Shown one piece after another: positions 1 through 14,872 of a stretch of DNA of 64,000 bases. Location of the stretch: positions 1,142,001-1,206,000 of the forward strand of contig NC_013159.1 of assembly GCF_000023865.1 (NCBI RefSeq), read 5' to 3'. Under the pieces are notes generated by a model. That model was given only the letters and a program-made list of their open reading frames with translations. It was not told where the DNA came from and ran no database searches. Position 1 is the stretch's first letter. The number at the start of each line of letters is the position of its first letter. The DNA comes from Saccharomonospora viridis DSM 43017 (GTDB lineage Bacteria; Actinomycetota; Actinomycetes; Mycobacteriales; Pseudonocardiaceae). The position numbers and the translations under genes are program-made.

Positions 1-2
1 CG

Positions 3-2240
3 ACCGAGGCCGGTCCGGTGACCCACACCTACACCGAGAACGGCCAGTACCACGCGAAACTGTCGGTGACCGACCCCGGTGGGCTGTCCGGCAGCGCGAG
101 CGTGGTGATCACCGTGGGCAACACCGAGCCGACGGTGAAGCTGGAGACGCCGGTCAACGGTGGGTTCTTCGGTTTCGGTGACCTCGTGCCGTTCACGGTC
201 ACGGTGACCGACCCGGAGGACGGGGAGATCGACTGCTCCAAGGTCACGGTGGAGTACATCCTCGGCCACGACAACCACGGCCACCCGTTGTCGCGGGCGT
301 CCGGTTGTGAGGGGGTCATCGAGACCCCGGCCGACGAGGGCCACGGACTCGACGCCCACATCTTCGGTGTCATCGACGCGCGTTACACCGACAACGGTGG
401 GGCCGAGGGCGTGCCCGCGTTGACCGGTTCGGACCAGAACATCCTCCAGCCGAAGATCAAGCAGGCTGAGTTCTTCACCGAACTGGAAGGCGTCGAGGTC
501 GTCACGGCCTCCGGTGCCAGCGGTGGCAAGCGGGTTGGCTACATCGACGACGGTGACTGGATCAAGCTCGACCCGGTCAACCTGGTGGGGGTCGACAGCA
601 TCACCTACCGCGTGTCCTCCGGTGGCCCGGGCGGCACGATCGAGGCCCGTGCGGGCGCGTTGGACGGTCCCGTGGTGCACACGGTGGAGGTACCGAACAC
701 GGGTGGTTGGGACTCCTACACCGAGGTCGGCCCCGTGGAGGTCACCGATCCGGGTGGTACCCAGCCGTTGTATCTGGTGTTCCACGGTGAGGGTGATGGA
801 GGATTGTTCGACGTGGACGTCCTCCACGTCAACGGCGCCGGTGTTGCCCAGCCCGGCACTTCTCCGGCCGAATGTGAGCCGGCGGAGCCCGAGGAGGGTT
901 ACCGGATGCTGTTCGACGGCACCGCGGCCAGCCTGGAGAACTGGAATCAAGCCGGTCCCGGTTCCTTCGAGCTCGGTGACGACTGCACCATCAAGTCGGT
1001 CGGTGGCATGGGGCTGCTGTGGTACGACGAGCAGTTCGGTGCCTACAGCCTCAAGCTCGACTGGAAGATGGCCGGCGACGACAACTCCGGCGTGTTCGTC
1101 GGATTCCCGGACCCGGGCGACGATCCGTGGGTGGCGGTGAACGAGGGGTACGAGATCCAGATCGACCCCACCGACGATCCCGACAAGACCACGGGTGCCA
1201 TCTACGGCTTCCAGTCGGCGGACCTGGAGGCCCGGGACGCGGCGCTCAACCCGCCGGGGGAGTGGAACTCCTACGAGATCGTGGTCCGCGACCAGACGAT
1301 CCAGGTGTACCTCAACGACACCCTGATCAACGATTTCGTCAGCACCGACCCGAACCGGGATCTGACGCAGGGATTCGTGGGGCTGCAGAACCACGGTGAC
1401 GAGGACGAGGTCTGGTTCCGCAACGTCCAGATCCGCGACCTCGACACCACGGCCCCGGCCACCGAGGCGTCGTTCGCCGAACCCGGCGCGAACGGCTGGC
1501 ACAACGGCGAGGTCGGGGTCACCCTGACGGCCACGGACGAGGGTTCCGGGGTCGAACGCATCGAGTACAGCCTCGACGGTGGGGACTGGACCACCTACAC
1601 CGAGCCGGTCGTGATCAGTGGTGACGGCGAGCACACGATGCTGTACCGGGCGGTGGACAAGGCGGGCAACGTCGAGAACGACAAGGCCGTCACGATCAGG
1701 ATCGACGGCACCGCCCCGACGGTGATGATCGCCGGTGTCGCCGACGGCTTCGTCTACGGCGACGCCGAGGAGCTCACCATCAGCTGGGAAGCGCGGGACG
1801 GGACGTCCGGTGTGGAATCCGCGGCCGCGGAACTCGACGGTGAGGCCCTCGAGTCGGGCACCACGGTGCCGTTGTATCCGCTCGACCTCGGCGAGCACTC
1901 ACTCACCGTGAGCGCCACCGACAAGGCGGGCAACACCGCGGAGCACACGCTGACGTTCACCTCCACGACGTCGTTCGACGACGTGGCGTCCCTGATTCGG
2001 AGGTTCGCGGCGGAGGACAAACTCACCACGGCGGAGAAGGTGGTCCTGTCGGCGGAGTTGGCCCTGGCCAAACGCGCGAGCGAGGGTGGTCGGACGACAC
2101 CGGCTGTCGTGCTGATGCGGTTGTTCATCGGTATGGCCCAGCACGTGTCCGACGACGATGCCCGAGACACGCTCGTGCGAGACGGACGGGCGCTGCTCGG
2201 CCACATCGACGGAAGCGCACCGATACCCGTCGTTTCGTGA
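3..2240 (+). CDS. Secreted multidomain protein (PKD, CBM6-like, DUF1080, Ig-like, FIMAH-like), 5' partial
   Basis: The frame is open from the window edge, so the N-terminus lies upstream. In order the visible part shows the end of a PKD repeat (VTDPGGLSGSASVVITVG), a second Ig-like module, a CBM6-like beta-sandwich (about nt 450-850), and a DUF1080 / 3-keto-disaccharide-hydrolase-type LamG-like domain that begins MLFDGTAASLENW. Two Ig-like repeats of the VERIEYSLDGG...YRAVDKAGNVE type follow, then a helical C-terminus resembling the FIMAH domain. In actinomycetes this architecture is usual at the C-terminus of large exported ThuA or sugar-dehydrogenase-like proteins that bind or process carbohydrate. 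No sorting signal is visible at the C-terminus. A strong hairpin follows the stop, so it is probably transcribed separately from the operon downstream. Domain families are assigned by eye; the catalytic part, if any, is outside the window. Confidence 0.8.
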   Translation, partial: TEAGPVTHTYTENGQYHAKLSVTDPGGLSGSASVVITVGNTEPTVKLETPVNGGFFGFGDLVPFTVTVTDPEDGEIDCSKVTVEYILGHDNHGHPLSRASGCEGVIETPADEGHGLDAHIFGVIDARYTDNGGAEGVPALTGSDQNILQPKIKQAEFFTELEGVEVVTASGASGGKRVGYIDDGDWIKLDPVNLVGVDSITYRVSSGGPGGTIEARAGALDGPVVHTVEVPNTGGWDSYTEVGPVEVTDPGGTQPLYLVFHGEGDGGLFDVDVLHVNGAGVAQPGTSPAECEPAEPEEGYRMLFDGTAASLENWNQAGPGSFELGDDCTIKSVGGMGLLWYDEQFGAYSLKLDWKMAGDDNSGVFVGFPDPGDDPWVAVNEGYEIQIDPTDDPDKTTGAIYGFQSADLEARDAALNPPGEWNSYEIVVRDQTIQVYLNDTLINDFVSTDPNRDLTQGFVGLQNHGDEDEVWFRNVQIRDLDTTAPATEASFAEPGANGWHNGEVGVTLTATDEGSGVERIEYSLDGGDWTTYTEPVVISGDGEHTMLYRAVDKAGNVENDKAVTIRIDGTAPTVMIAGVADGFVYGDAEELTISWEARDGTSGVESAAAELDGEALESGTTVPLYPLDLGEHSLTVSATDKAGNTAEHTLTFTSTTSFDDVASLIRRFAAEDKLTTAEKVVLSAELALAKRASEGGRTTPAVVLMRLFIGMAQHVSDDDARDTLVRDGRALLGHIDGSAPIPVVS

Positions 2241-2396: not shown

Positions 2397-3545
2397 ATGG
2401 CGCCCACAGGGTTGTGGTTGATCGGTGCGCGGGGGTCGGTCGCCACCACGGCGATCACGGGACTGCTCGCGTTGCGGTCCGGGATCGTTCCCGGCGTCGG
2501 CTGTGTCAGTGCTCAACAGCAGTTCCGGAAGGTCCCGCTGCCCGAGTGGGACGAGATCCACGTCGGTGGCCATGACATCGTCGACACCCCGCTGGAGAAG
2601 AGGGCCGAACTGCTCGCCGAGTCCGGTGTGATCCCGCACCGGATCTTCGAAGCGGTGCGGCCCTCTCTGTCCGAAGTGGAGGACAACATCCGGCCGGGAT
2701 ACCATCCGGCCACCCATGCGGGCACCCAGTCCGACGCGGCCCGCACCCTCACCGACGACATCACCGCGTTCGCCCGCCGCAACGGACTGGCCAGAGTCGT
2801 GGTGATCAACGTGTCGTCCACCGAGCCCGTGTTCCCCGCTCTGCCCGAACACGGCAGCCTCGACACGTTAGAAGCGGCCATGGCGGTACCGGGGCGCACC
2901 GTGTTGCCGCCGAGTTCCGTCGCGGTCTACGCGGCGTTGCGGGCCGGATGTCCGTTCGTCGACTTCACCCCATCCACCGGGATCCGTCTCGCCGCGCTGC
3001 AGGAACTCGCGAAGAAACAGCGATTGCCGTACGCGGGTTCGGACGGCAAGACCGGGGAGACGCTCATGCGCAGCGCACTCGCGCCGATGTTCACCACGCG
3101 GGCGCTCGCGGTGCGGTCGTGGACGGGCACGAACCTGCTCGGCGGCGGTGACGGGAGGACCTTGGCCGACGCCGAGCACGCGAGCAGCAAGCTCCAGTCC
3201 AAGGGCCGGGGGCTGTCCACCCTGCTGGGCAGGGAGGTCACCGCACCCCTGCACATCGACAACGTGCCCGACCTCGGTGAACAGAAGATCGCTTGGGACC
3301 ACGTGTCGTTCGAGGGCTTCCTCGGCGTGCGGATGAGCCTGCAGTTCACGTGGACCGGCTACGACTCCTCGCTCGCCGCGCCGCTGGTGCTCGACCTGGC
3401 GCGGTTCACCGCGGCCGCGCACGCCGCGGGACACACCGGTCCGCTGGGCTCGTTGGCGTTCTTCTTCAAGGACCCGATGGGAACTGACGAACATCGGCTC
3501 GGCGAACAGTTCGCCAACCTCGTGTCGTGGGCGGAAACGCTATGA
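2397..3545 (+). CDS. Inositol-3-phosphate synthase-like protein, first gene of the ebo-type operon
   Basis: This 382-residue protein has an N-terminal Rossmann motif GARGSVA (residues 10-16) and the inositol-phosphate-synthase core around GSDGKTGET (214-222) and WTGTNLLGGGDG (242-253). Known family members isomerise glucose 6-phosphate to inositol 3-phosphate with NAD. Whether this one keeps that substrate is not shown. The ATG at 2397 follows AAAGGG at 2381-2386. The next gene starts inside its stop codon (ATGA at 3542), so the two are translationally coupled. In other ebo clusters a 3-dehydroquinate-synthase-like cyclase (EboD) sits here. I infer that this cyclase supplies the cyclitol or sugar-phosphate chemistry instead. 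Housekeeping inositol synthesis is an alternative, but the operon context argues against it. Confidence 0.82.
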   Translation: MAPTGLWLIGARGSVATTAITGLLALRSGIVPGVGCVSAQQQFRKVPLPEWDEIHVGGHDIVDTPLEKRAELLAESGVIPHRIFEAVRPSLSEVEDNIRPGYHPATHAGTQSDAARTLTDDITAFARRNGLARVVVINVSSTEPVFPALPEHGSLDTLEAAMAVPGRTVLPPSSVAVYAALRAGCPFVDFTPSTGIRLAALQELAKKQRLPYAGSDGKTGETLMRSALAPMFTTRALAVRSWTGTNLLGGGDGRTLADAEHASSKLQSKGRGLSTLLGREVTAPLHIDNVPDLGEQKIAWDHVSFEGFLGVRMSLQFTWTGYDSSLAAPLVLDLARFTAAAHAAGHTGPLGSLAFFFKDPMGTDEHRLGEQFANLVSWAETL

Positions 3546-4405
3546 AGGCCTACGTCGAACTCGTGCGAGCGCCCGCCGCCCTGACGGCCGTGGGGGACAC
3601 CGTGGCCGGTGGCGCGGCGGCCGGGACACCGCTGCGGGGCAGGCGGTTGTTGCTCCCCGCCGCGTCGGCGGCGTTCTACTGGGCGGGGATGGCGCTCAAC
3701 GACTGGGCCGACCGGGAACTGGATGCCGTGGAACGGCCGGAACGGCCCATCCCCTCGGGCCGGGTGAGCGCGGGCGCGGCGTTGGCCACCGGGAGCGCGC
3801 TCACCGCGGCCGGACTCGTACTCGCCCGACTCGGCGGAGGCAAGCGGGCATGGCGCACGGCCGTACCGTTGGCCGCCTGCGTGTGGGCCTACGACACGAC
3901 GTTGAAGGGCACCGCGTTCGGCCCGGTCGGCATGGCCGCGTGTCGGGCGCTGGACGTGCTGCTCGGCGCGGGTGGCCGGGAACGCGCCGCCTTGACCGCG
4001 GCGGGCGTGCTCGGCGTGCACACCCTCGGGGTCACCGCGTTGTCGGCGGGCGAGGTCCACGGCACCTCTCGTGGCACCGCGGGCGGTGCCCTCGCGGCGA
4101 CGGCGGTGTCGACCACGTTGGCGGCCCGGGGAACCGGTGGGACCCGCCGCGGTGGTCGATGGCGTCGTGCGTTCACGGCGGCGCTGGCCGGTGCCTATGC
4201 GAGCTCCGTGGGCGGCGCCCAGTACGCGGCGCTGCGGGAGCCGTCGGCTCGGCACGCACGCCAGGCCACGAAGGCCGGTATCCACGGCATGGTCCCACTG
4301 CAGGCCACCGTCGCGGCACGACACGGCGCCGTGCGTTCCGCGGCGTTTCTGGTGACGGTCCTCCCATTGGCCCGGCGACTGGCAAGGAAGGTGAGCCCGA
4401 CGTGA
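3542..4405 (+). CDS. eboC: UbiA-like prenyltransferase-family membrane protein EboC
   Basis: A 287-residue hydrophobic protein with the UbiA first Asp-rich motif, N53-D54-x2-D57-x3-D61, followed by ERPIPSG (67-73). A second conserved region lies around the AYDTTLKGT stretch. UbiA enzymes transfer prenyl groups from prenyl diphosphates inside the membrane, using Mg bound to two Asp motifs. EboC proteins form a separate branch found in ebo clusters, where the cluster has been tied to moving a metabolite precursor to the periplasm in cyanobacteria. The second Asp motif looks weaker than in classical UbiA, so catalysis is not certain. The start ATG overlaps the upstream stop and the downstream GTG overlaps this stop (GTGA). 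The high Ala/Gly/Val content agrees with several membrane helices. Confidence 0.83.
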   Translation: MKAYVELVRAPAALTAVGDTVAGGAAAGTPLRGRRLLLPAASAAFYWAGMALNDWADRELDAVERPERPIPSGRVSAGAALATGSALTAAGLVLARLGGGKRAWRTAVPLAACVWAYDTTLKGTAFGPVGMAACRALDVLLGAGGRERAALTAAGVLGVHTLGVTALSAGEVHGTSRGTAGGALAATAVSTTLAARGTGGTRRGGRWRRAFTAALAGAYASSVGGAQYAALREPSARHARQATKAGIHGMVPLQATVAARHGAVRSAAFLVTVLPLARRLARKVSPT

Positions 4406-5844
4406 GCGCTTTGCGATTCGGTTACGGCACCAACGGTTTCGCCAACCACCGGCTCGACGACGCCCTGGCCGTCATCGCCGATCTCGGTTACTCGGGAGTG
4501 GCGTTGACGTTGGATCACGCGCATCTGGACCCGTTCGCCGACGACGTGGCGGCACAGACCCGTCGTGTCGCGGCGCGACTGTCCGAATTGGGGCTCGGCG
4601 TCGTGGTGGAGACCGGCGCGCGTTTCCTGCTCGACCCGTGGCGCAAGCATCAGCCGACCCTGTTGTCCGACGAGTCCGGACCCCGGGTGGACTTCCTGCG
4701 TCGGGCCGCTGAGATCGCCGCGGACCTGGGGGCGGAGTGCGTGTCGTTCTGGTCGGGTGTGGCGCCGTCGCAGCTCGACGACGGGACCGCGTGGCGACGT
4801 CTGCTCGACGGGGTGGCCGCCGTGCTGGACGGGACGGAGGGCACCCGGATGCGCTTCGCGTTGGAGCCCGAACCCGGCCACTACGTGCAGCACCTCGATC
4901 AGGCGCTGCGCCTGCGGAAGGAACTGGGCAACCCGGAACGGCTGGGGATCACGCTCGACGTCGGCCATTGTGTCGCCGTGGAACCGGTCAGCGCGGCCGA
5001 ATGCGTACGCAAGGCCGGGGACCTGCTGTTCAACGTGCAATTGGACGACATGCGGCCCGGCGTGCACGAGCATCTGGAGTTCGGCGAGGGGGAGTTGGAC
5101 CTCGCCGAGACGTTGGGAGCGCTGGCGGAGGTCGGCTACACGGGGTTGGCCTCGGTGGAGCTGCCCCGGCACAGCCACGCCGCACCCGATGTCGCCCGAC
5201 GTGCCAAGGCGGCCCTGACCGCGGCCGAGTGGGTGGTCGATGCGGAAGCGGCCGTTCGGACGGACCCCACCCGGATCCGGACGTTGTTCCCGGCCGTGGG
5301 TCGCAAGGTCGGTCGGGGACCCGTGCGGCCAAAGGTCGATGCCGACGGATTCGTGTACGGCACCGTGGACGACCGTGCCCGGGGCAGGCTGCTGGCGGCG
5401 CTGGCGTCGGCGTTGGACGTCGATCCGTTGGTCGAGGAGGTCGAGCAGCTGTACCGCTACGGCGACGGCGCGGAGCGGCGCGGTGTCCTGCGCAACCTGC
5501 ACCTGCTGCCGACCGACGACGCACGAGTGGTCGAACTCGGGGTGCGGTTGGTGACCGATGCCCTCCGCGCCAACGACACCGGACTCGTGGCGGCCGCACT
5601 CGGGCCGTTCGCGGCCGATGAGCTCGACGACCACAACTGGCGACACGGTGTGCTCAAGTGCCTGTTCACCGGGGTTCCGACGGCGGCGGTGGCCGGTTTG
5701 GCCCGCCGCTGTGACGCCGAACTGCAACGCATGGTCGGTGACTACGTCGCCGAGAGGAAGGCCGCGGGCCGCACCGTGCCCGCCGACGCCGAGGCGATTC
5801 TCGCGCTCGGCCCCGTCACACGCGAGGAGGAGGCCGCCCGATGA
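4402..5844 (+). CDS. Xylose-isomerase-like TIM barrel fused to an EboA domain
   Basis: This is a 480-residue two-domain protein. Residues 1 to about 275 are a xylose-isomerase-like TIM barrel with the expected divalent-metal ligands E155 (LEPEPGH), D186 (LDVGHC) and E253 (SVELPRH). After a linker, residues of about 320-455 match the helical EboA family, including NWRHGVLKCLFTG (412-424). EboA is normally a separate small protein of unknown chemistry encoded in ebo clusters. Here it is joined to the isomerase-like barrel, which suggests the two act in one complex. The GTG start at 4402 overlaps the stop of eboC, and a longer upstream extension in this frame would run through eboC and is rejected. 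The stop overlaps the next start (ATGA). I am confident of both domains, less so of substrate. Confidence 0.85.
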   Translation: MSALRFGYGTNGFANHRLDDALAVIADLGYSGVALTLDHAHLDPFADDVAAQTRRVAARLSELGLGVVVETGARFLLDPWRKHQPTLLSDESGPRVDFLRRAAEIAADLGAECVSFWSGVAPSQLDDGTAWRRLLDGVAAVLDGTEGTRMRFALEPEPGHYVQHLDQALRLRKELGNPERLGITLDVGHCVAVEPVSAAECVRKAGDLLFNVQLDDMRPGVHEHLEFGEGELDLAETLGALAEVGYTGLASVELPRHSHAAPDVARRAKAALTAAEWVVDAEAAVRTDPTRIRTLFPAVGRKVGRGPVRPKVDADGFVYGTVDDRARGRLLAALASALDVDPLVEEVEQLYRYGDGAERRGVLRNLHLLPTDDARVVELGVRLVTDALRANDTGLVAAALGPFAADELDDHNWRHGVLKCLFTGVPTAAVAGLARRCDAELQRMVGDYVAERKAAGRTVPADAEAILALGPVTREEEAAR

Positions 5845-6704
5845 GGATTTTCGACCCGCACATCCACATGACGTCGCGCACCACCATCGACTATGAGGAG
5901 ATGTACGCCGTCGGCGTCCGCGCCGTCGTGGAACCGGCGTTCTGGCTCGGACAGCCCCGCACGAACGTCGGCTCGTTCACCGACTACTTCGACGGACTCA
6001 TCGGTTGGGAGCGGTTCCGTGCGTCGCAGTTCGGCATCCGCCACCACTGCACGATCGCGTTGAACCCGAAGGAGGCCAACGACCCGCGCTGTGTCGACGT
6101 GCTCGACGTCCTGCCCCGTTACCTCGCCAAGGACGGTGTCGTGGCCGTCGGGGAGGTGGGTTACGACTCGATGACCGAGGCCGAGGAGAAGGCGTTCACC
6201 CACCAACTGGGGCTCGCGATCGAGCACGAGCTCCCCGTGCTGGTGCACACACCGCATCGCGACAAGCTGGAGGGCACCAAACGCACGCTCGACGTCGTGC
6301 GCGAGTCCGGTATCGACCCGTCCCTGGTGGTGGTGGACCACCTCAACGAGGTCACCGTCGGGCTCGTGGCCGAATCCGGTTGCTGGATGGGCTTTTCCAT
6401 CTACCCCGACACGAAGATGGACGAGCACCGCATGGTGGCGATCCTCAAGGAGTACGGCACCGAACGGATGCTGGTGAACTCCGCCGCCGACTGGGGTCGT
6501 TCGGACCCGCTCAAGACCTACCGCACGGGCAAGGCGATGCTGGAGGCGGGTTTCTCCGAATCCGATGTGGACAAGGTTTTGTGGGAGAACCCCGTGGAGT
6601 TCTACGGGCAGAGCGGCAAATTGATACTCGACCCGCTGCCGGAATCCACGCCGAACGCGGAGACCTTCGAGGGCAATTCGGTGCTACGCGGCGCGAGGAA
6701 GTGA
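5841..6704 (+). CDS. eboB: TatD-like metal-dependent hydrolase EboB
   Basis: A 287-residue amidohydrolase-fold protein of the TatD type. The metal site is visible as D5-P-H7-I-H9, E105 (VGEVGYD), H136 (VLVHTPH), H167 (VDHLNE) and D217 (NSAADWG). It corresponds to EboB, the predicted hydrolase that accompanies EboA and EboC in ebo clusters. Classical TatD enzymes are 3'-5' exonucleases, whereas cluster context here argues for hydrolysis of a small molecule. It is translationally coupled to the gene before (ATGA) and three bases separate it from eboE. It is probably cytoplasmic, as no signal peptide is seen. Confidence 0.85.
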   Translation: MRIFDPHIHMTSRTTIDYEEMYAVGVRAVVEPAFWLGQPRTNVGSFTDYFDGLIGWERFRASQFGIRHHCTIALNPKEANDPRCVDVLDVLPRYLAKDGVVAVGEVGYDSMTEAEEKAFTHQLGLAIEHELPVLVHTPHRDKLEGTKRTLDVVRESGIDPSLVVVDHLNEVTVGLVAESGCWMGFSIYPDTKMDEHRMVAILKEYGTERMLVNSAADWGRSDPLKTYRTGKAMLEAGFSESDVDKVLWENPVEFYGQSGKLILDPLPESTPNAETFEGNSVLRGARK

Positions 6705-6707
6705 ATC

Positions 6708-7805
6708 GTGCTCTCGTACTGTACGAACGTCCACCCCGCCGAGGACCTCGACGGCATCGTCGAGCAACTCGACACCTACGCGACCCCCGTTCGGGAGGCA
6801 CTCGGCGTCGACGTCCTGGGAGTGGGCCTGTGGCTGGCCGCCGAGGTGGCCTCCGCGCTCGCCTCCGATCCCGCGGCCCGGGCCCGACTGGCCGGTGAGT
6901 TGAAGGCCAGGGGCTTGGGGGTGCAGACGTTGAACGCCTTCCCCTACGGCGGTTTCCACGACACCGTGGTCAAACACTCGGTGTACCTGCCGACGTGGAC
7001 CGATCCGCGTCGGGCGCGCTACACCCGCGACTGCCTGACGGTGCTGGCCGACCTGCTGCACGAGGACGCCGACTACGGCAGCATCTCGACCTTGCCGTTG
7101 GCGTGGCGAAAGCCGTGGGACGCGGCCGAGGACGATCGCGCCACGGCGATGTTCGCCGAGGTGACCGAGCATGCCCGCGCAGTGTCGCGGCGGCTGGGTA
7201 AACCCCTGCGGCTGGCGGTGGAACCGGAACCCGGATGCGTGCTCGACACCGTCGCCGACGCCGTGTCGTGGCTGTCCGGCCGGGTCGACCCCGAATACGT
7301 GGGCCTCTGCCTGGACACCTGCCATCTGGCCGTGTCGTTCGCGGAGCCGGCTGAGGAGGTCCGGCGGATCCACGAGGCCGGACTCGAGGTGGTGAAGGTG
7401 CAGGCGTCGGCGGCGCTTCATGTCGACGACCCCGCCGACCCCACGGCCCGGGCGGCGCTCGCCGAATTCGTCGAACCACGCTACCTGCACCAGGTGCGGG
7501 AGCGTTCGGCCTCCGGTGAGGTGCTCGCCGCCGACGATCTCGACCTGGCTTTGGAGGAGCTGCCGGCGGAAGGACCGTGGCGCGTGCATTTCCACGTGCC
7601 CCTGCACGCGCAACCCACGCCACCGTTGCGGTCCACCACCGACGTGCTGACGGACGCGATCACCGCGTTGACCGCCGAGCGTCAGGCGCCGCACATCGAG
7701 GTCGAGACCTACACCTGGTCGGTCCTCCCACACGCCTCCCAGGTCGATCTGGCCGCCGGGATCGCCGACGAACTGCGCTGGGCACGTATGGAGGTAGCCG
7801 CATGA
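6708..7805 (+). CDS. eboE: Metabolite traffic protein EboE, xylose-isomerase-like TIM barrel
   Basis: The 365-residue protein opens MLSYCTNVHPAEDL, typical of EboE, and includes the family stretch NAFPYGGFH (77-84). Metal ligands of the xylose-isomerase-like barrel are seen at E172 (VEPEPG) and D203 (CLDTCHL). EboE is a conserved ebo protein of unknown substrate. Start GTG is chosen three bases after the eboB stop, which preserves operon spacing and matches the family N-terminus. The downstream ATG of the phosphodiesterase overlaps its stop (ATGA). The C-terminal part around residues 270-340 is the EboE-specific extension rather than a general isomerase feature. Confidence 0.85.
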   Translation: MLSYCTNVHPAEDLDGIVEQLDTYATPVREALGVDVLGVGLWLAAEVASALASDPAARARLAGELKARGLGVQTLNAFPYGGFHDTVVKHSVYLPTWTDPRRARYTRDCLTVLADLLHEDADYGSISTLPLAWRKPWDAAEDDRATAMFAEVTEHARAVSRRLGKPLRLAVEPEPGCVLDTVADAVSWLSGRVDPEYVGLCLDTCHLAVSFAEPAEEVRRIHEAGLEVVKVQASAALHVDDPADPTARAALAEFVEPRYLHQVRERSASGEVLAADDLDLALEELPAEGPWRVHFHVPLHAQPTPPLRSTTDVLTDAITALTAERQAPHIEVETYTWSVLPHASQVDLAAGIADELRWARMEVAA

Positions 7806-9202
7806 GGAAACTGCTGGTGCTCGACGTCGTGGGCCTGACCCCCGCGCTGCTTCGGTACATGCCGAACCTGTCGCGGATCGCCGGCCGGGGGTGGAAGGCC
7901 GAACTCGGCACGGTGTTGCCCGCCGTCACCTGTAGCGCGCAGTCGACGTTCCTCACCGGGACGCTGCCCGCCGAGCACGGCATCGTCGGCAACGGCTGGT
8001 ACTTCCGCGATCTCGGGGAGATCTACCTGTGGCGGCAGCACAACAAACTCGTGCAACGGCCGAAGGTCTGGGAGATCGCTCGCGCGGCGCGTCCCGACTA
8101 CACCGCCGCGAACGTGTGCTGGTGGTACGCGATGGGGATGACCACCGACATCACGGTCACCCCTCGCCCCATCTATCACGCCGACGGCCGTAAGTCGCCG
8201 GACTGCTACGTGCGCCCGCCGCATCTGCACGACGCGCTCACCGCAGAGCTCGGGGAGTTCCCACTGTTCCAGTACTGGGGTCCCACGGCGTCCATCGTGT
8301 CGTCGAAGTGGATCGTGGGTGCCGTGCGGCGGATCCTGCGCACCGACAACCCCGACCTGTTGCTGGCGTACGTGCCGCATCTCGACTACGACCTGCAACG
8401 GTACGGCCCCGATTCGCCGCAGGCGGCCAAGGCTGCCAGGGAGGTCGACGCCGCGTTGGCGCCGTTGTTGCACGACGCCGAGAGCGCGGGCTCCACGGTG
8501 GTGGTCCTGTCGGAGTACGGCATCACACCCGTGGACACACCGGTGGACATCAACCGCGCGTTGCGTCGAGAGGGACTGTTGGAGGTCTACACCCAGGACG
8601 GGATGGAGTACCTGGACCCGTGGACCTCACGGGCGTTCGCCGTGGCCGATCACCAGGTCGCCCACGTCTACGTCGCCGACGAGAAGGACCTGGCGAGAGT
8701 CCGCAAGATCGTCGAGAACCTCACCGGGGTGGACGAGGTCCTGGACCGCGAGGCCCAGGCCCGCTACGGGCTCGACCACGAGCGGGCGGGGGAGTTCGTG
8801 GCGGTGGCCGAACCCCGCGCCTGGTTCACCTACTACTACTGGCTGGACGACGATTACGCGCCGGATTACGCGCGAGGGGTGGAGATCCATCGCAAACCCG
8901 GCTATGACCCGGCGGAATTGTTCTTCGACCCCACCGACTCGCTGGCCAAGGTGAAAGCGGGGCTGAACCTGGTGCGTAAGAAGGTCGGGCTGCGCTACGC
9001 CATGAACGTGGTGCCCACCGATCCGAGGTGGGTGCGCGGCTCGCACGGCCGATTGCCCGATTCCCCGGAACACGGTCCCGTTCTGCTCTGCTCCGACCCG
9101 GCTGTTCCCTCCACTGTGGAGTCAAGGGGACGTATCGAGGCCACCGAGGTTCGTGATCTTCTACTGAAACTGCAAGGAATCGACGAAGGAGCTCGACGAT
9201 GA
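7802..9202 (+). CDS. Alkaline-phosphatase-superfamily nucleotide pyrophosphatase/phosphodiesterase, EboF-like
   Basis: A 466-residue enzyme of the type I nucleotide pyrophosphatase/phosphodiesterase group. D8 (LVLDVVGL) and T43 ([15 protein letters not shown]) are the expected first metal ligand and nucleophile. [10 protein letters not shown] follows at 58-67, and a second metal set lies around [13 protein letters not shown] and LSEYGI. Members cleave phosphodiester or pyrophosphate bonds of nucleotides or activated alcohols. In ebo clusters an enzyme of this kind could release a phosphoryl group from a transported precursor. The ATG at 7802 overlaps the eboE stop, and a longer reading upstream would overlap eboE and is rejected. 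No signal peptide is visible, so it appears cytoplasmic. EboF assignment rests on position and family. Confidence 0.82.
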
Positions 9203-10206
9203 GCCGTCCGGTAACACTGTTCACCGGCCAGTGGGCCGACATGCCGTTCGAGGAAGTGTGCCGACTCGCGTCGGAGTGGGGATACGACGGGCTGGAGATC
9301 GCCTGCTCGGGAGACCACTTCGAGGTCGACCGTGCTCTGTCCGAAGAGGACTATGTGGCGAACAAGTTGAAGCTGCTCGAATCCTACGGCCTCAAGGTGT
9401 GGGCGATCTCCAACCACCTCGTGGGGCAAGCGGTGTGCGACGATCCGATCGACGAACGCCACCGCAACATCCTGCCCGCCCGGATCTGGGGTGACGGCGA
9501 CCCCGAGGGGGTGCGACAGCGGGCCGCGGCCGAGATGGCCGACACCGCCAGGGCCGCCGCGAAGCTCGGTGTGGACACCGTCATCGGTTTCACCGGCTCC
9601 AAGATCTGGAAGTACGTGGCGATGTTCCCGCCCGTGACCGCCGAGATGATCGACGACGGGTACGCCGACTTCGCACGCCGTTGGAACCCGATCCTCGACG
9701 TCTTCGACGAGGTGGGTGTGCGCTTCGCCCACGAGGTGCACCCGAGCGAGATCGCCTACGACTACTGGACCACCAAACGGACGCTGGAGGCGATCGACCA
9801 CCGGCCCGCGTTCGGGTTGAACTGGGACCCGTCGCACTTCGTGTGGCAGGACCTCGACCCCGTCGGGTTCATCCTGGACTTCGCCGACCGCATCTACCAC
9901 GTGGACTGCAAGGACACGAAGAAGCGGTTCGACGGCCGCAACGGCAGGCTCGGCTCGCACCTGCCGTGGGCCGATCCGCGCCGTGGCTGGGACTTCGTGT
10001 CCACCGGGCACGGCGACGTGGACTGGGAGAGCGCGTTCAGGGCCCTGAACGCCATCGGCTACACCGGGCCGATCTCGGTGGAGTGGGAGGACGCGGGCAT
10101 GGACCGCTTGCGGGGAGCCGCCGAAGCCGTCACCTACATCCGCAGTCTGTTGTTCGACAAGCCCGAAGCAGCCTTCGACGCCGCGTTCAGCACGGAGAGG
10201 AACTGA
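9199..10206 (+). CDS. Sugar phosphate isomerase/epimerase-like TIM barrel
   Basis: A 335-residue xylose-isomerase-like barrel with a well preserved metal site: E179 (FAHEVHPSE), D210 and H213 (NWDPSH), H234 (YHVDCKD) and E295 (SVEWEDAG). It resembles sugar phosphate isomerases/epimerases acting on polyols or keto-sugars, and differs from EboE and the EboA-fused barrel. The ATG overlaps the stop of the phosphodiesterase gene (ATGA), placing it in the ebo-type operon. It would be cytoplasmic. It is the third of four TIM barrels of this superfamily in the operon, so the pathway probably contains several isomerisation or epimerisation steps on one carbon skeleton. Confidence 0.85.
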
Positions 10207-10212
10207 CCCGCG

Positions 10213-11070
10213 ATGAGAGACGGAATGCTGTCCCGTAGAGCGATGTTCCGCACCGCGGTCGGGGCTGCGGCGGCCGTGGGGCTCGCCGGAGCCATGAGCG
10301 GCACGGCGCACGCCGACTGGGGTCGGGGCGGTAGGCGCATCCCCAAACAGATGATCAGCATCCAGCTCTACACCCTCCGGAACCTGTTGCAGGACGATCT
10401 GGAGGGCACACTGGAGGCACTGGCCGACATCGGTTACCGCACCGTGGAACTCGCGGGCACCTACGGCCGCTCGGCGGCGGAGTTCCGTCGGCTGCTCGAC
10501 CGATACCACCTCAAGGCCACGTCGGCGCACGTCGGATTCGACGGTGAGGACGTCGATCAGCTCATCGCGGACGCCAAGACGATCGGCTACCGCAAAGCGG
10601 CCTGCGCCTATGCGAACTATTCGACGCTGGAGGAATGGCGGGCGTTCGCGAGGCGACTCGACAAGGCCGCCGCGGCCTTCCGCAAGGCCGGGATCTCGTA
10701 CGGCTACCACAACCACGCGCACGAGTACCAGCCCATCGACGGCATCCGGCCGATCGACGTGATCGCCGAGTGCACCAGTCCCCGCAACGTGCACCTGGAG
10801 TACGACCTGTACTGGTTGGTGGACGCCGGGGCCGATCCGGTGGTGGAGTACTACCGCCGATTCGGCCGGGTCCAGCAGTTCCACGTCAAGGATCGTGCGG
10901 AGGACGGTGGTTGGGCCGACGTCGGCACGGGCACCATCGACTGGCCGACCCTGTTCCGTCGCACCTGGATCGGACCGATGAAGCAGTACATCGTCGAGCA
11001 CGACGACCCGGCCGATCCGTTGAACACCGCCAAGGTGGGATACGAGTACCTGGCGAACGTGCGTTTCTAA
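10213..11070 (+). CDS. Tat-exported sugar phosphate isomerase/epimerase-like protein
   Basis: A 285-residue protein with a twin-arginine signal: S7-R8-R9-A-M-F, then a hydrophobic Ala/Gly/Val segment and a probable cleavage after AHA (32-34). The mature part is a xylose-isomerase-like TIM barrel starting QMISIQLYTLRNLL, with YGYHNHAHE, LEYDLYW and FHVKD as the metal-binding strands. This superfamily is usually cytoplasmic, and Tat export implies that the metal is loaded before translocation. Exported members in actinomycetes are often near DUF1080 and sugar dehydrogenase genes. It lies six bases after the previous gene, and a terminator-like hairpin follows its stop. As last gene of the ebo-type operon it places part of the pathway outside the membrane. 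Confidence 0.85.
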   Translation: MRDGMLSRRAMFRTAVGAAAAVGLAGAMSGTAHADWGRGGRRIPKQMISIQLYTLRNLLQDDLEGTLEALADIGYRTVELAGTYGRSAAEFRRLLDRYHLKATSAHVGFDGEDVDQLIADAKTIGYRKAACAYANYSTLEEWRAFARRLDKAAAAFRKAGISYGYHNHAHEYQPIDGIRPIDVIAECTSPRNVHLEYDLYWLVDAGADPVVEYYRRFGRVQQFHVKDRAEDGGWADVGTGTIDWPTLFRRTWIGPMKQYIVEHDDPADPLNTAKVGYEYLANVRF

Positions 11071-13540: not shown

Positions 13541-14872
13541 TCAGCGGCCCAGGCGGTGATACGCGAATCCGGCTCGGGTCACGGCCTCGGCCTCGAGCAG
13601 GTTCCGGGCGTCCACGACCGTGGGGCGGTCGGCCAGTTCGGCCAGTTGGGCCCAGTCCAGCGCCCGGAACTGCGGCCACTCCGTCAGCAGGACGAGACCG
13701 GCGGAGTCCTTCGCGACGAGTGTCGGATCGTCCACCACATGGACGGGCCGGACGTCCGCCGTGCGGTCCACCCCCGGGTCGTAACCGGTCAACACGGCAC
13801 CCGCCTCGGCCAGCAGCGCGGCGACGGCCAACGCCGGTGACTCCCGGACGTCGTCCGTGCCCGCTTTGAAGGTCAACCCGAGTAGACCCAACCGCAGTCC
13901 GGCCAACGAACCGTCGGGGGAGCCCGTGACCGCCTCACGCACCTTCTCCACCACCCGCTCGTGCTGACGTCGGTTGGCGGCCATCGCGTCGGCCAGCACG
14001 GCGAAGTCCACCCCGGCCTGTTTCGCCGCGTGCAGCAACGCGCGGGTGTCCTTCGGCAGACAGGAGCCTCCCCAGCCGGGACCGGGGGACAGAAACGCCG
14101 TCCCGATGCGGGGGTCGAGGCGCATGGTCTCGGCCACGTCGATGACCTCGGCCCCCAGTCGTTCGGAGAGTTCGGTGAGCACGTTCACGTAGGACACCTT
14201 CAGCGCGAGGAAGGCGTTGCTGGCGTACTTCCCGAGTTCCGAACTGGCCGGCTCAGTGCGCAGCACGGGAGCGGAGACGCCCTCGTAGAGGGCGGCCACC
14301 CGGTCGGCGGCGGTCGCCTCGGTCGCACCGATCACGATGCGGTCGGGGTTCAGGAAGTCGTGAACGGCGTGGCCCTCCCTGAGGAACTCGGGGTTGCTCA
14401 CCGTGGCGCGGCCCAGTGCGCGGGCCGTGCGTTCCGTGGTGCCGACCGGAACGGTCGACTTGATCACCACGACGCAGTCGCGGTCGAGTACGTCGGACAA
14501 CGTCTCGACGGCGGCGTCGAAAGCCCGCAGGTCGGTGGTGCCGTCGGAATGCACCGGGGTCGGCACGCAGAGCAGGACGACCTCGGCGGTGGCCAGCCCG
14601 GCGAGGTCGGTGGTGAACGACAGGGAGCCGTCGGCGAGGCGGGCGTTCACCAGTTCACCGAGCCCCGGCTCGGCGATCGGCACCTCGCCGCGGCGAAGGA
14701 GGGCCACCTTGTCGGCGTCGATGTCCACGCCCGTCACCCGATGCCCCAGGTGGGCAAGGCAGGCTGCGCTGGTCAGTCCGACATAGCCCGTGCCGACGAC
14801 ACCGACCGTGAGCCGGTCTTCCCGGTGGGACCTCCCTGGTCGGGCGGCAGGCCTGCTGTGTTGGTCCGACAT
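13541..14872 (-). CDS. UDP-glucose 6-dehydrogenase
   Basis: A 443-residue nucleotide-sugar dehydrogenase. The NAD-binding GTGYVGL motif lies at residues 27-33, and the catalytic cysteine sits in the GGSCLPKDT motif of the central domain. The C-terminal domain has the usual GLTFKAGTDDVRESPA stretch. The enzyme should oxidise UDP-glucose to UDP-glucuronate with two NAD. A UDP-glucuronate decarboxylase-like gene lies at 22904, so the pair can make UDP-xylose for the glycan locus. ATG 14872 has GGAGGT six bases upstream. Its first 100 bases overlap the 3' end of the preceding glycosyltransferase gene, which is unusual but each frame has good coding features. It is the last gene of the minus-strand operon. 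Confidence 0.9.
   Translation of the reverse strand: MSDQHSRPAARPGRSHREDRLTVGVVGTGYVGLTSAACLAHLGHRVTGVDIDADKVALLRRGEVPIAEPGLGELVNARLADGSLSFTTDLAGLATAEVVLLCVPTPVHSDGTTDLRAFDAAVETLSDVLDRDCVVVIKSTVPVGTTERTARALGRATVSNPEFLREGHAVHDFLNPDRIVIGATEATAADRVAALYEGVSAPVLRTEPASSELGKYASNAFLALKVSYVNVLTELSERLGAEVIDVAETMRLDPRIGTAFLSPGPGWGGSCLPKDTRALLHAAKQAGVDFAVLADAMAANRRQHERVVEKVREAVTGSPDGSLAGLRLGLLGLTFKAGTDDVRESPALAVAALLAEAGAVLTGYDPGVDRTADVRPVHVVDDPTLVAKDSAGLVLLTEWPQFRALDWAQLAELADRPTVVDARNLLEAEAVTRAGFAYHRLGR

Follow-up and report, generated by a model that had tools for sequence, protein, structure and literature searches.

The ebo operon (eboA-F) was described by Yurchenko et al. (2016; PMC5133447) and Klicki et al. 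(2018; PMC6282210), and its chemistry has remained unsettled from its naming in 2016 onward. The 2016 paper (PMC5133447) had already recorded, in Actinobacteria, EboA fused to a xylose-isomerase-like domain, the legend of Figure 3 in PMC9235831 names Saccharomonospora viridis DSM 43017, and the EDB work on Pseudomonas is cited through PMC6282210 and the review PMC9655573. We analyzed the ebo-type operon of S. viridis DSM 43017, whose genome is a single contig of 4,308,349 bases; positions 1142001-1206000 of this contig (64,000 bases) form the stretch called the window. In this operon, an enzyme of the myo-inositol phosphate synthase (MIPS) family occupies the slot of the cyclase EboD. Our overall reading, to which we give an even chance, is that the operon represents a MIPS-type ebo variant with a cyclitol-derived, prenylated product that acts alongside extracytoplasmic beta-propeller oxidoreductases.

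The operon comprises eight co-directional open reading frames (ORFs) on the + strand between window positions 2397 and 11070. Neighboring ORFs overlap by 4 bases at five junctions (3542-3545, 4402-4405, 5841-5844, 7802-7805, and 9199-9202), while EboB and EboE are spaced by 3 bases (6704/6708) and the last two ORFs by 6 bases (10206/10213). A preliminary description, made from the sequence alone, had correctly portrayed the genes as overlapping or closely spaced. It had also counted nine genes, the ninth lying nine bases on; there are eight ORFs, since EboA has no gene of its own and forms the C-terminal domain in ORF 3, and the last gap is the 6 bases given above. The claim that a MIPS-like enzyme sits in the EboD slot of an ebo-type operon is supported; the enzyme has both MIPS domains, PF07994 (167.7 bits, cut-off 25) and PF01658 (102.8 bits, cut-off 27). 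As to the ebo parts said to be recognizable, the EboA domain and the EboB-, EboE-, and EboF-like proteins were found as described, but the supposed EboC is only a relative that stays below the cut-off of the EboC equivalog. With this cut-off missed and EboD absent, the operon is not a "full" ebo operon.

To place this arrangement, EboE loci were compared within and beyond the class of the window strain, taken as Actinomycetes. An EboE match was found in 80 of 296 class genomes, above the cut-off in 76. From 92 EboE places listed, 80 stretches were fetched, omitting the strain's own locus and 11 places below the cut-off; these stretches were mostly about 20 kb long, and some were cut by contig ends. 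The loci of other groups were the best 80 of at least 583 relatives, ranked to the EboE of Azospirillum, so that the sample leans to Proteobacteria. EboD queries were taken from Ketogulonicigenium, Deinococcus, and Azospirillum. The exchange of the cyclase was exclusive in these samples: MIPS was found at 69 of 80 class loci and at none of the 80 other-group loci, and EboD at 66 of 80 other-group loci and at no class locus. Nor did any of the eight window ORFs match EboD; the one PF01761 gene of the genome lies about 440 kb from the operon. A sugar-isomerase-like TIM barrel beside or fused to EboA, here called TIM_A, was present at 67 of 80 class loci versus 0 of 80 other-group loci. Because TIM_A goes with MIPS and is absent with EboD, these two proteins together seem to do what EboD does alone. 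At 65 of 80 class loci, MIPS and TIM_A were accompanied by three or more of EboA, EboB, EboC, and EboF, which is more than chance would give. The MIPS-type ebo variant is real and widespread; the preliminary description was correct on the main point, which proved more general than it had said.

That description had named EboC and EboA-like genes without the cyclase in related genomes as counter-evidence. Of the 73 class loci that carry other ebo genes, 69 have MIPS, and one is a true exception. The four loci with other ebo genes but without MIPS are (i) L087 and (ii) L088, both cut by contig ends; (iii) L040, a second ebo copy in genome G057, where the other copy has MIPS; and (iv) L082, the true exception. 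Three further loci (L039, L043, and L052) have MIPS but no TIM_A within the stretch, and at L063 MIPS is present but TIM_A, EboC, and EboF were not found within the stretch. At the seven remaining class loci, EboE is matched (partially in two) without further ebo genes. The MIPS-less copy in G057 has a gene of the inositol monophosphatase family about 3 kb away (L040, 16266-17108). An inositol monophosphatase was rejected as a standard partner of the operon, since with one query it was found at this one of 80 loci.

Enzymes of the MIPS family close a ring from a sugar phosphate. The window enzyme is 38% identical to Archaeoglobus fulgidus MIPS (368 columns), 44% to a haloarchaeal homologue (L123), and 48-60% to other ebo copies of the class. 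For the tree of MIPS sequences, only rows of 300 residues or more were taken, and 12 of 113 extracted rows were dropped because they duplicated ebo loci or were partial or doubtful. Residues were counted in 98 of the 101 tree rows, leaving aside L210 and L212 (apparent wrong reading frame) and L240 (very long branch). Eight active-site positions were followed (A. fulgidus numbering: K274, K278, K306, K367, N255, D332, D225, and D261), of which K274, K306, K367, N255, and D332 have described roles and count as important (PMC5614600). All eight are conserved in 73 of 73 class ebo rows including the window, in three of three haloarchaeal rows, and in Gemmatirosa, so that the active site is intact. 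Within the NxxG..DG motif, position 259 is glycine in at least 95% of the class ebo rows; asparagine stands there in three single comparison rows, namely the haloarchaeal L123, Gemmatirosa L122, and the strain's own housekeeping copy (L034).

Clusters of the MIPS type also occur outside the class. In Gemmatirosa (L122), an EboC-MIPS-TIM_A block is surrounded by EboB, EboF, EboE, and EboG genes whose best matches are to queries taken from EboD-type operons; in this single record, a module has been swapped between phyla. Three haloarchaeal plasmids carry TatD, TIM-barrel, UbiA, TIM-barrel, MIPS, and NPP (phosphodiesterase) genes together; for one of them (L124), gene identities were taken from the annotation and from queries derived from L123. 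No clear EboE was found on these three plasmids, one weak match reaching 47 bits. MIPS is also present on a fourth haloarchaeal plasmid (Halomarina), where no ebo genes were seen. MIPS together with a TIM_A homologue (44 and 49% identity) is also encoded on two alphaproteobacterial plasmids (L126, 6971-8176, and L127), again with no ebo genes; annotated neighbors on L126 include Gfo/Idh, YcaO, metallo-hydrolase, and methyltransferase genes. Hymenobacter (L242) has a related MIPS that likewise stands with Gfo/Idh and YcaO genes.

The most informative neighbor of the operon, which the preliminary description had left aside, is a giant gene directly upstream (L033, 14651-19237) that starts 2349 bases before the window. 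Its product combines ThuA, glucose/sorbosone dehydrogenase (GSDH), PKD, CBM6, 3-keto-disaccharide hydrolase, and FIMAH domains, and its N-terminus resembles, by eye, a signal peptide. Upstream of it, on the same strand (L033, 9729-14603), lie ABC importer genes for a periplasmic binding protein, a permease, and an ATPase, and a Gfo/Idh gene resembling levoglucosan dehydrogenase (371 bits, under the cut-off of 650). About 120 kb downstream of the operon, the genome encodes another large GSDH protein of the giant's class (G000:C1:1272747-1275008).

Genome-wide, the giant and the operon occur together. The central part of the giant served as query (E up to 1e-60; in the rows inspected, scoring covered up to three candidates per genome), and genomes were counted as ebo-positive when they had EboE above the cut-off plus other ebo genes (71 genomes). 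The giant was matched in 68 of 296 class genomes: 66 had both, five the operon only (G007, G082, G143, G172, and G293), two the giant only (G183 and G226), and 223 neither (Fisher p = 3e-57, relatedness ignored). In the nine genera in which ebo is variable, compiled from the match tables with some matchless genomes left out, the overlap was 35 genomes versus 22.8 after shuffling within genera, and none of 200000 shuffles reached 35. Taken singly, genera g24, g44, and g39 were significant, g65, g71, and g52 showed the same direction without significance, and g69, g23, and g3 gave no support. A second sample of genus g44 (78 genomes, 72 of them new) contained 17 genomes with both, one with ebo only, three with the giant only, and 57 with neither.

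GSDH genes were also found near operons of both types, using a profile built from proteins of this kind; all ten of the ten matched proteins tested contain PF07995. Among loci with at least two further ebo genes, a GSDH ORF was present at 35 of 73 in the class and at 26 of 70 of the EboD type, where one match (L148) is weak (50 bits). The loci lacking two further ebo genes had none (0 of 7 in the class and 0 of 10 in other groups). As a background, 45 hand-chosen class genomes gave 112 matches in 265 Mb, i.e. 0.42 per Mb or about 0.8% per 19 kb. In the haloarchaeal cluster L123, a GSDH gene includes a cupredoxin domain, and no GSDH match was found in the stretches of the haloarchaeal L124 and L125. 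On a plasmid of Streptomyces camelliae (L116, 3185-4387), a gene of the ScyD/ScyE family (NF033206, 243 bits) directly precedes MIPS; the ScyD/ScyE query matched at two of 80 class loci and at none of 80 other-group loci. PqqC (TIGR02111) exceeded its cut-off in six of 296 genomes, five of them among the 68 giant-bearing ones, the window genome not being included. Host-made pyrroloquinoline quinone (PQQ) was accordingly set aside as cofactor of the giant, because PqqC is rare; PQQ could still be taken up from outside.

The features of the locus are collected in Table 1. The protein in the EboC position matches NF045897, "SCO3242 family prenyltransferase", with 367 bits (cut-off 260), and the EboC equivalog NF035940 with 149 bits (cut-off 250). 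It has the motifs NDWADRELD (NDxxDxxxD) at residue 53 and RALD at 135, and its nearest solved relative is DGGGP synthase (6m31, E = 3e-5). At the sequence level, TIM_A matched xylose isomerases and epimerases weakly. The EboA domain (NF035938, 159 bits, cut-off 50) is predicted to be all-helical (mean pLDDT 95.4); a Foldseek search with this model gave nothing below E = 0.1 and mostly helical repeats. In S. camelliae, for one, EboA is a separate gene. EboB has its best identities at 79% among class loci and 61% (370 bits) among EboD-type loci, and its structural relative is AF_1765 (3guw). EboF (PF01663, 221 bits) matched structures of phosphonoacetate hydrolase and NPP, and its best match among EboD-type loci reached 504 bits at 55% identity.

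Table 1. Features of the ebo-type locus of S. viridis DSM 43017 in window coordinates
Feature	Position	Strand	Evidence
MIPS-type cyclase in the EboD slot, 382 amino acids (aa)	2397..3545	+	PF07994, PF01658; nearest solved structure Archaeoglobus fulgidus MIPS (1u1i), 219 bits; eight active-site positions
EboC-like UbiA prenyltransferase, SCO3242 family, 287 aa	3542..4405	+	NF045897 over cut-off; motifs
TIM_A (sugar-isomerase-like TIM barrel, residues ~23-270) and EboA domain (323-466), 480 aa	4402..5844	+	PF01261; NF035938
EboB-like TatD-family metal hydrolase, 287 aa	5841..6704	+	PF01026
EboE, TIM barrel of the ketose-epimerase/IolI class, 365 aa	6708..7805	+	NF035939; structure model
EboF-like type I phosphodiesterase/nucleotide pyrophosphatase, 466 aa	7802..9202	+	PF01663
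TIM7, TIM barrel, neighbor and not core	9199..10206	+	Close to 2zds, related to 8ro4
TIM8, TIM barrel with N-terminal Tat-like motif, neighbor and not core	10213..11070	+	PF01261; SRRAMF by eye
3' part of the 1529-aa multidomain GSDH gene (giant), not an ebo gene, candidate functional partner	1..2240	+	Pfam on whole gene

EboE matches its equivalog NF035939 with 444 bits (cut-off 250). Against the PDB, its sequence gave nothing below E = 0.4; its structure model (pLDDT 92.4) matched ketose epimerases, SCO6571, UlaE, and IolI in Foldseek (E = 7e-10 to 2e-7), and the query TM-scores were only around 0.5. Two homologues (L070, 9396-10658, and L110, 9394-10872) stand without any other ebo gene, so EboE may also serve a purpose beyond ebo. 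Both homologues lie near genes for 2-oxoacid dehydrogenase E1/E2, and the one at L070 additionally near an aldehyde dehydrogenase gene.

The last two ORFs were rejected as core ebo genes. TIM7 and TIM8 were found within the fetched stretch at 34 and 33 of 80 class loci, respectively, and TIM7 tracks ebo less well than the giant does (63 genomes with both, eight with ebo only, and 42 with TIM7 only). TIM7 matches 2zds (SCO6571 of S. coelicolor) with 593 bits and the 2-hydroxy-3-keto-glucal hydratase 8ro4 with 145 bits; together with the Gfo/Idh gene upstream of the giant, these solved relatives point to a 3-keto-sugar pathway. Beyond the operon, an ORF on the minus strand (window 13541-14872) resembles, by eye, a UDP-sugar dehydrogenase.

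From these parts, the following course can be proposed. The MIPS-family enzyme would make a cyclitol phosphate, probably from glucose 6-phosphate. TIM_A and the EboE barrel, judged by their fold class, may isomerize or dehydrate the cyclitol or its keto form, and the EboC-like protein, by its family and motifs, would join the cyclitol to a prenyl chain at the membrane. EboF would take off a phosphate or phosphodiester, and EboA, as modeled, could act as a helical scaffold. In EboD-type operons, a sugar-phosphate cyclase would provide the equivalent ring. The product probably works outside the cytoplasm with proteins of the GSDH or ScyE type, as cofactor, electron carrier, or membrane partner of secreted or periplasmic oxidoreductases; in the window strain, the partner would be the adjoining ThuA-GSDH-3-keto-disaccharide-hydrolase protein. 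A product acting with ScyE-type proteins would fit the chemical phenotype shared by ebo and scyE mutants of Nostoc (PMC6282210). More tentatively, and with considerable doubt, we suggest that both ebo types make a so far unknown, prenylated, cyclitol-derived, possibly polyhydroxy-aromatic or quinone-like compound that serves beta-propeller oxidoreductases as a redox cofactor or membrane electron carrier. The enzymes served would be of the GSDH kind in many bacteria and at least one haloarchaeon, and ScyE in cyanobacteria, many of the hosts being without PqqC. If this were true, the scytonemin phenotype of ebo mutants would reflect a lost ScyE function, not a lost transporter.

Several points weigh against the proposed use of the product or leave its chemistry loosely fixed. 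The eight active-site residues are identical too in 11 housekeeping and 10 other MIPS rows, so they support chemistry of the MIPS type and do not fix a particular substrate; a MIPS homologue named five-membered-cyclitol-phosphate synthase (6k96) exists in the PDB. A marine bacterial EboC farnesylates quinolines in vitro (PMC9235831). In genome G028 (locus L082), the ebo genes occur without an ebo-type MIPS or TIM_A; a Gfo/Idh gene lies directly upstream of EboC there, and the two MIPS genes of this genome are of other types. No GSDH gene was found in the fetched flanks of 44 of 70 EboD-type loci, nor in the stretches from three named EboD-type plasmids, three named Streptomyces plasmids, and Nonomuraea. 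The 17 loci lacking two further ebo genes are a weak control, several of them being short contigs, and the significance of the EboD-type count (p = 4e-10) is relative to an assumed density of 5 per Mb, the background having been measured in the class only. Among the genomes with the operon and without the giant, G172 has no GSDH match at all, and G082, G143, G293, and G007 have one each. Co-occurrence by itself gives neither direction nor chemistry, and a shared habit could cause the association.

Such a habit, or transfer, is the core of one alternative, namely that ebo and a sugar-utilization island of importer, Gfo/Idh, giant, and TIM7/TIM8 genes travel together without shared biochemistry. 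In the window strain, the importer, Gfo/Idh, and giant genes and the ebo operon are indeed co-directional, and among the places listed the giant lies within 25 kb of EboE in 43 of the 66 genomes with both. In three, both share a contig at a distance of 105-338 kb, and in 20 the giants listed sit on contigs other than that of EboE; most of these 23 unlinked cases thus involve separate draft contigs, which weakens them as evidence for independence. In the g44 sample, nine of 17 genomes have the two within 25 kb, four at 142-216 kb, and four on other contigs. The seven measured pairs at 105-338 kb (six genomes, as G136 is in both samples) and the 24 cases with listed giants on other contigs (20 + 4) suggest that hitch-hiking accounts for part of the association, not for all of it, and we consider co-travel as the whole explanation doubtful. 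A second alternative, unlikely although not strongly so, is an isoprenoid-cyclitol secondary metabolite, protective or antimicrobial, that has nothing to do with dehydrogenases, the GSDH neighbors being co-inherited or due to a saprophytic habit. For EboD-type operons, a product of the isoprenoid-cyclitol kind has been put forward (PMC5133447), the transferase and MIPS pair SCO3242/SCO3243 is listed with the CDA antibiotic cluster (PMC3610822), and on one Streptomyces plasmid the operon adjoins phosphopantetheinyl transferase and ABC transporter genes. The association of operon and giant nevertheless holds within genera, and GSDH genes lie near EboD-type operons elsewhere.

The alternative that ebo is an export system, in which a complex of EboA, EboB, and EboC would bring a precursor to the periplasm by means of a lipid carrier, in this case with a cyclitol head group, has support from Nostoc: the monomer is confined to the cytoplasm in ebo mutants and not in a scyE mutant (Klicki et al., PMC6282210). 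This localization favors transport over a cofactor of ScyE and counts against the use that we propose; the authors call a cofactor conceivable. Sorbosone dehydrogenase appears in that paper only as a periplasmic marker. The UbiA-type prenyltransferase and the all-helical model of EboA would suit export as well. Family profile searches, however, found no transporter-family protein among the eight ORFs, most of which resemble sugar or cyclitol enzymes, and the joint swap of cyclase and TIM_A implies the synthesis of a specific molecule, so that export appears quite unlikely to us as the main function. Finally, the MIPS domains and catalytic residues would be equally in place in an ordinary extra inositol synthase for mycothiol or phosphatidylinositol, yet this is very improbable. 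The genome has another MIPS, only 22% identical to the window enzyme, that falls in a separate cluster of housekeeping rows; a cyclase grouping with housekeeping synthases in a strain with no other copy, named in the preliminary description as counter-evidence, is therefore not what we found, and a housekeeping role was rejected on these grounds. Moreover, the mycothiol INO1 equivalog (TIGR03450) scores 23.7 bits against a cut-off of 638, and in family f38 the ebo copy is the sole MIPS match in four genomes (G117, G204, G239, and G289), with seven listed genomes having no MIPS match. Inositol lipid synthesis was rejected because none of the eight ORFs matched a CDP-alcohol phosphotransferase; a Bacteroides MIPS locus that does include such a gene has no ebo genes within its 7-kb stretch.

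Returning to a cyclitol-derived product used with extracytoplasmic oxidoreductases, its interest lies in two points. An unrelated cyclase combined with a second swapped enzyme suggests that a cyclitol is probably the entry compound, narrowed to the products of MIPS-type reactions. The link to GSDH is a genome-wide hint at the use of the ebo product and suggests a testable job for the cluster. In our literature search, for which subscription papers were mostly beyond reach, no statement of a MIPS in an ebo operon was found, and the accessible parts of PMC5133447, PMC3610822, PMC9235831, and PMC6282210 mention neither a MIPS replacing EboD nor a link between ebo and GSDH.

Compared with the described systems, the window operon resembles eboA-F in that a single operon joins a UbiA prenyltransferase with an EboA domain and with EboB-, EboE-, and EboF-like proteins; unlike eboA-F, it has MIPS and a TIM barrel instead of EboD, and its UbiA protein belongs to the SCO3242 family and lies under the EboC equivalog. 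The pair SCO3242/SCO3243 of Streptomyces coelicolor (PMC3610822) shares this UbiA family name and is likewise paired with an annotated myo-inositol phosphate synthase; that paper describes the pair without calling it ebo in its accessible parts, and the likeness comes from names and annotation. A. fulgidus MIPS shares all eight active-site positions with the window enzyme. The Ubi-297/EboC proteins of marine Flavobacteria and Saccharomonospora (PMC9235831) are EboC-type prenyltransferases in ebo clusters too, but in the accessible text EboD (3-dehydroquinate synthase) counts as one of the ebo genes and MIPS goes unmentioned. Already known, then, were the fusion of EboA to an isomerase-like domain, the SCO3242/SCO3243 pair, and the ebo cluster of Saccharomonospora; new is that the ebo operon tracks secreted proteins of the GSDH fold.

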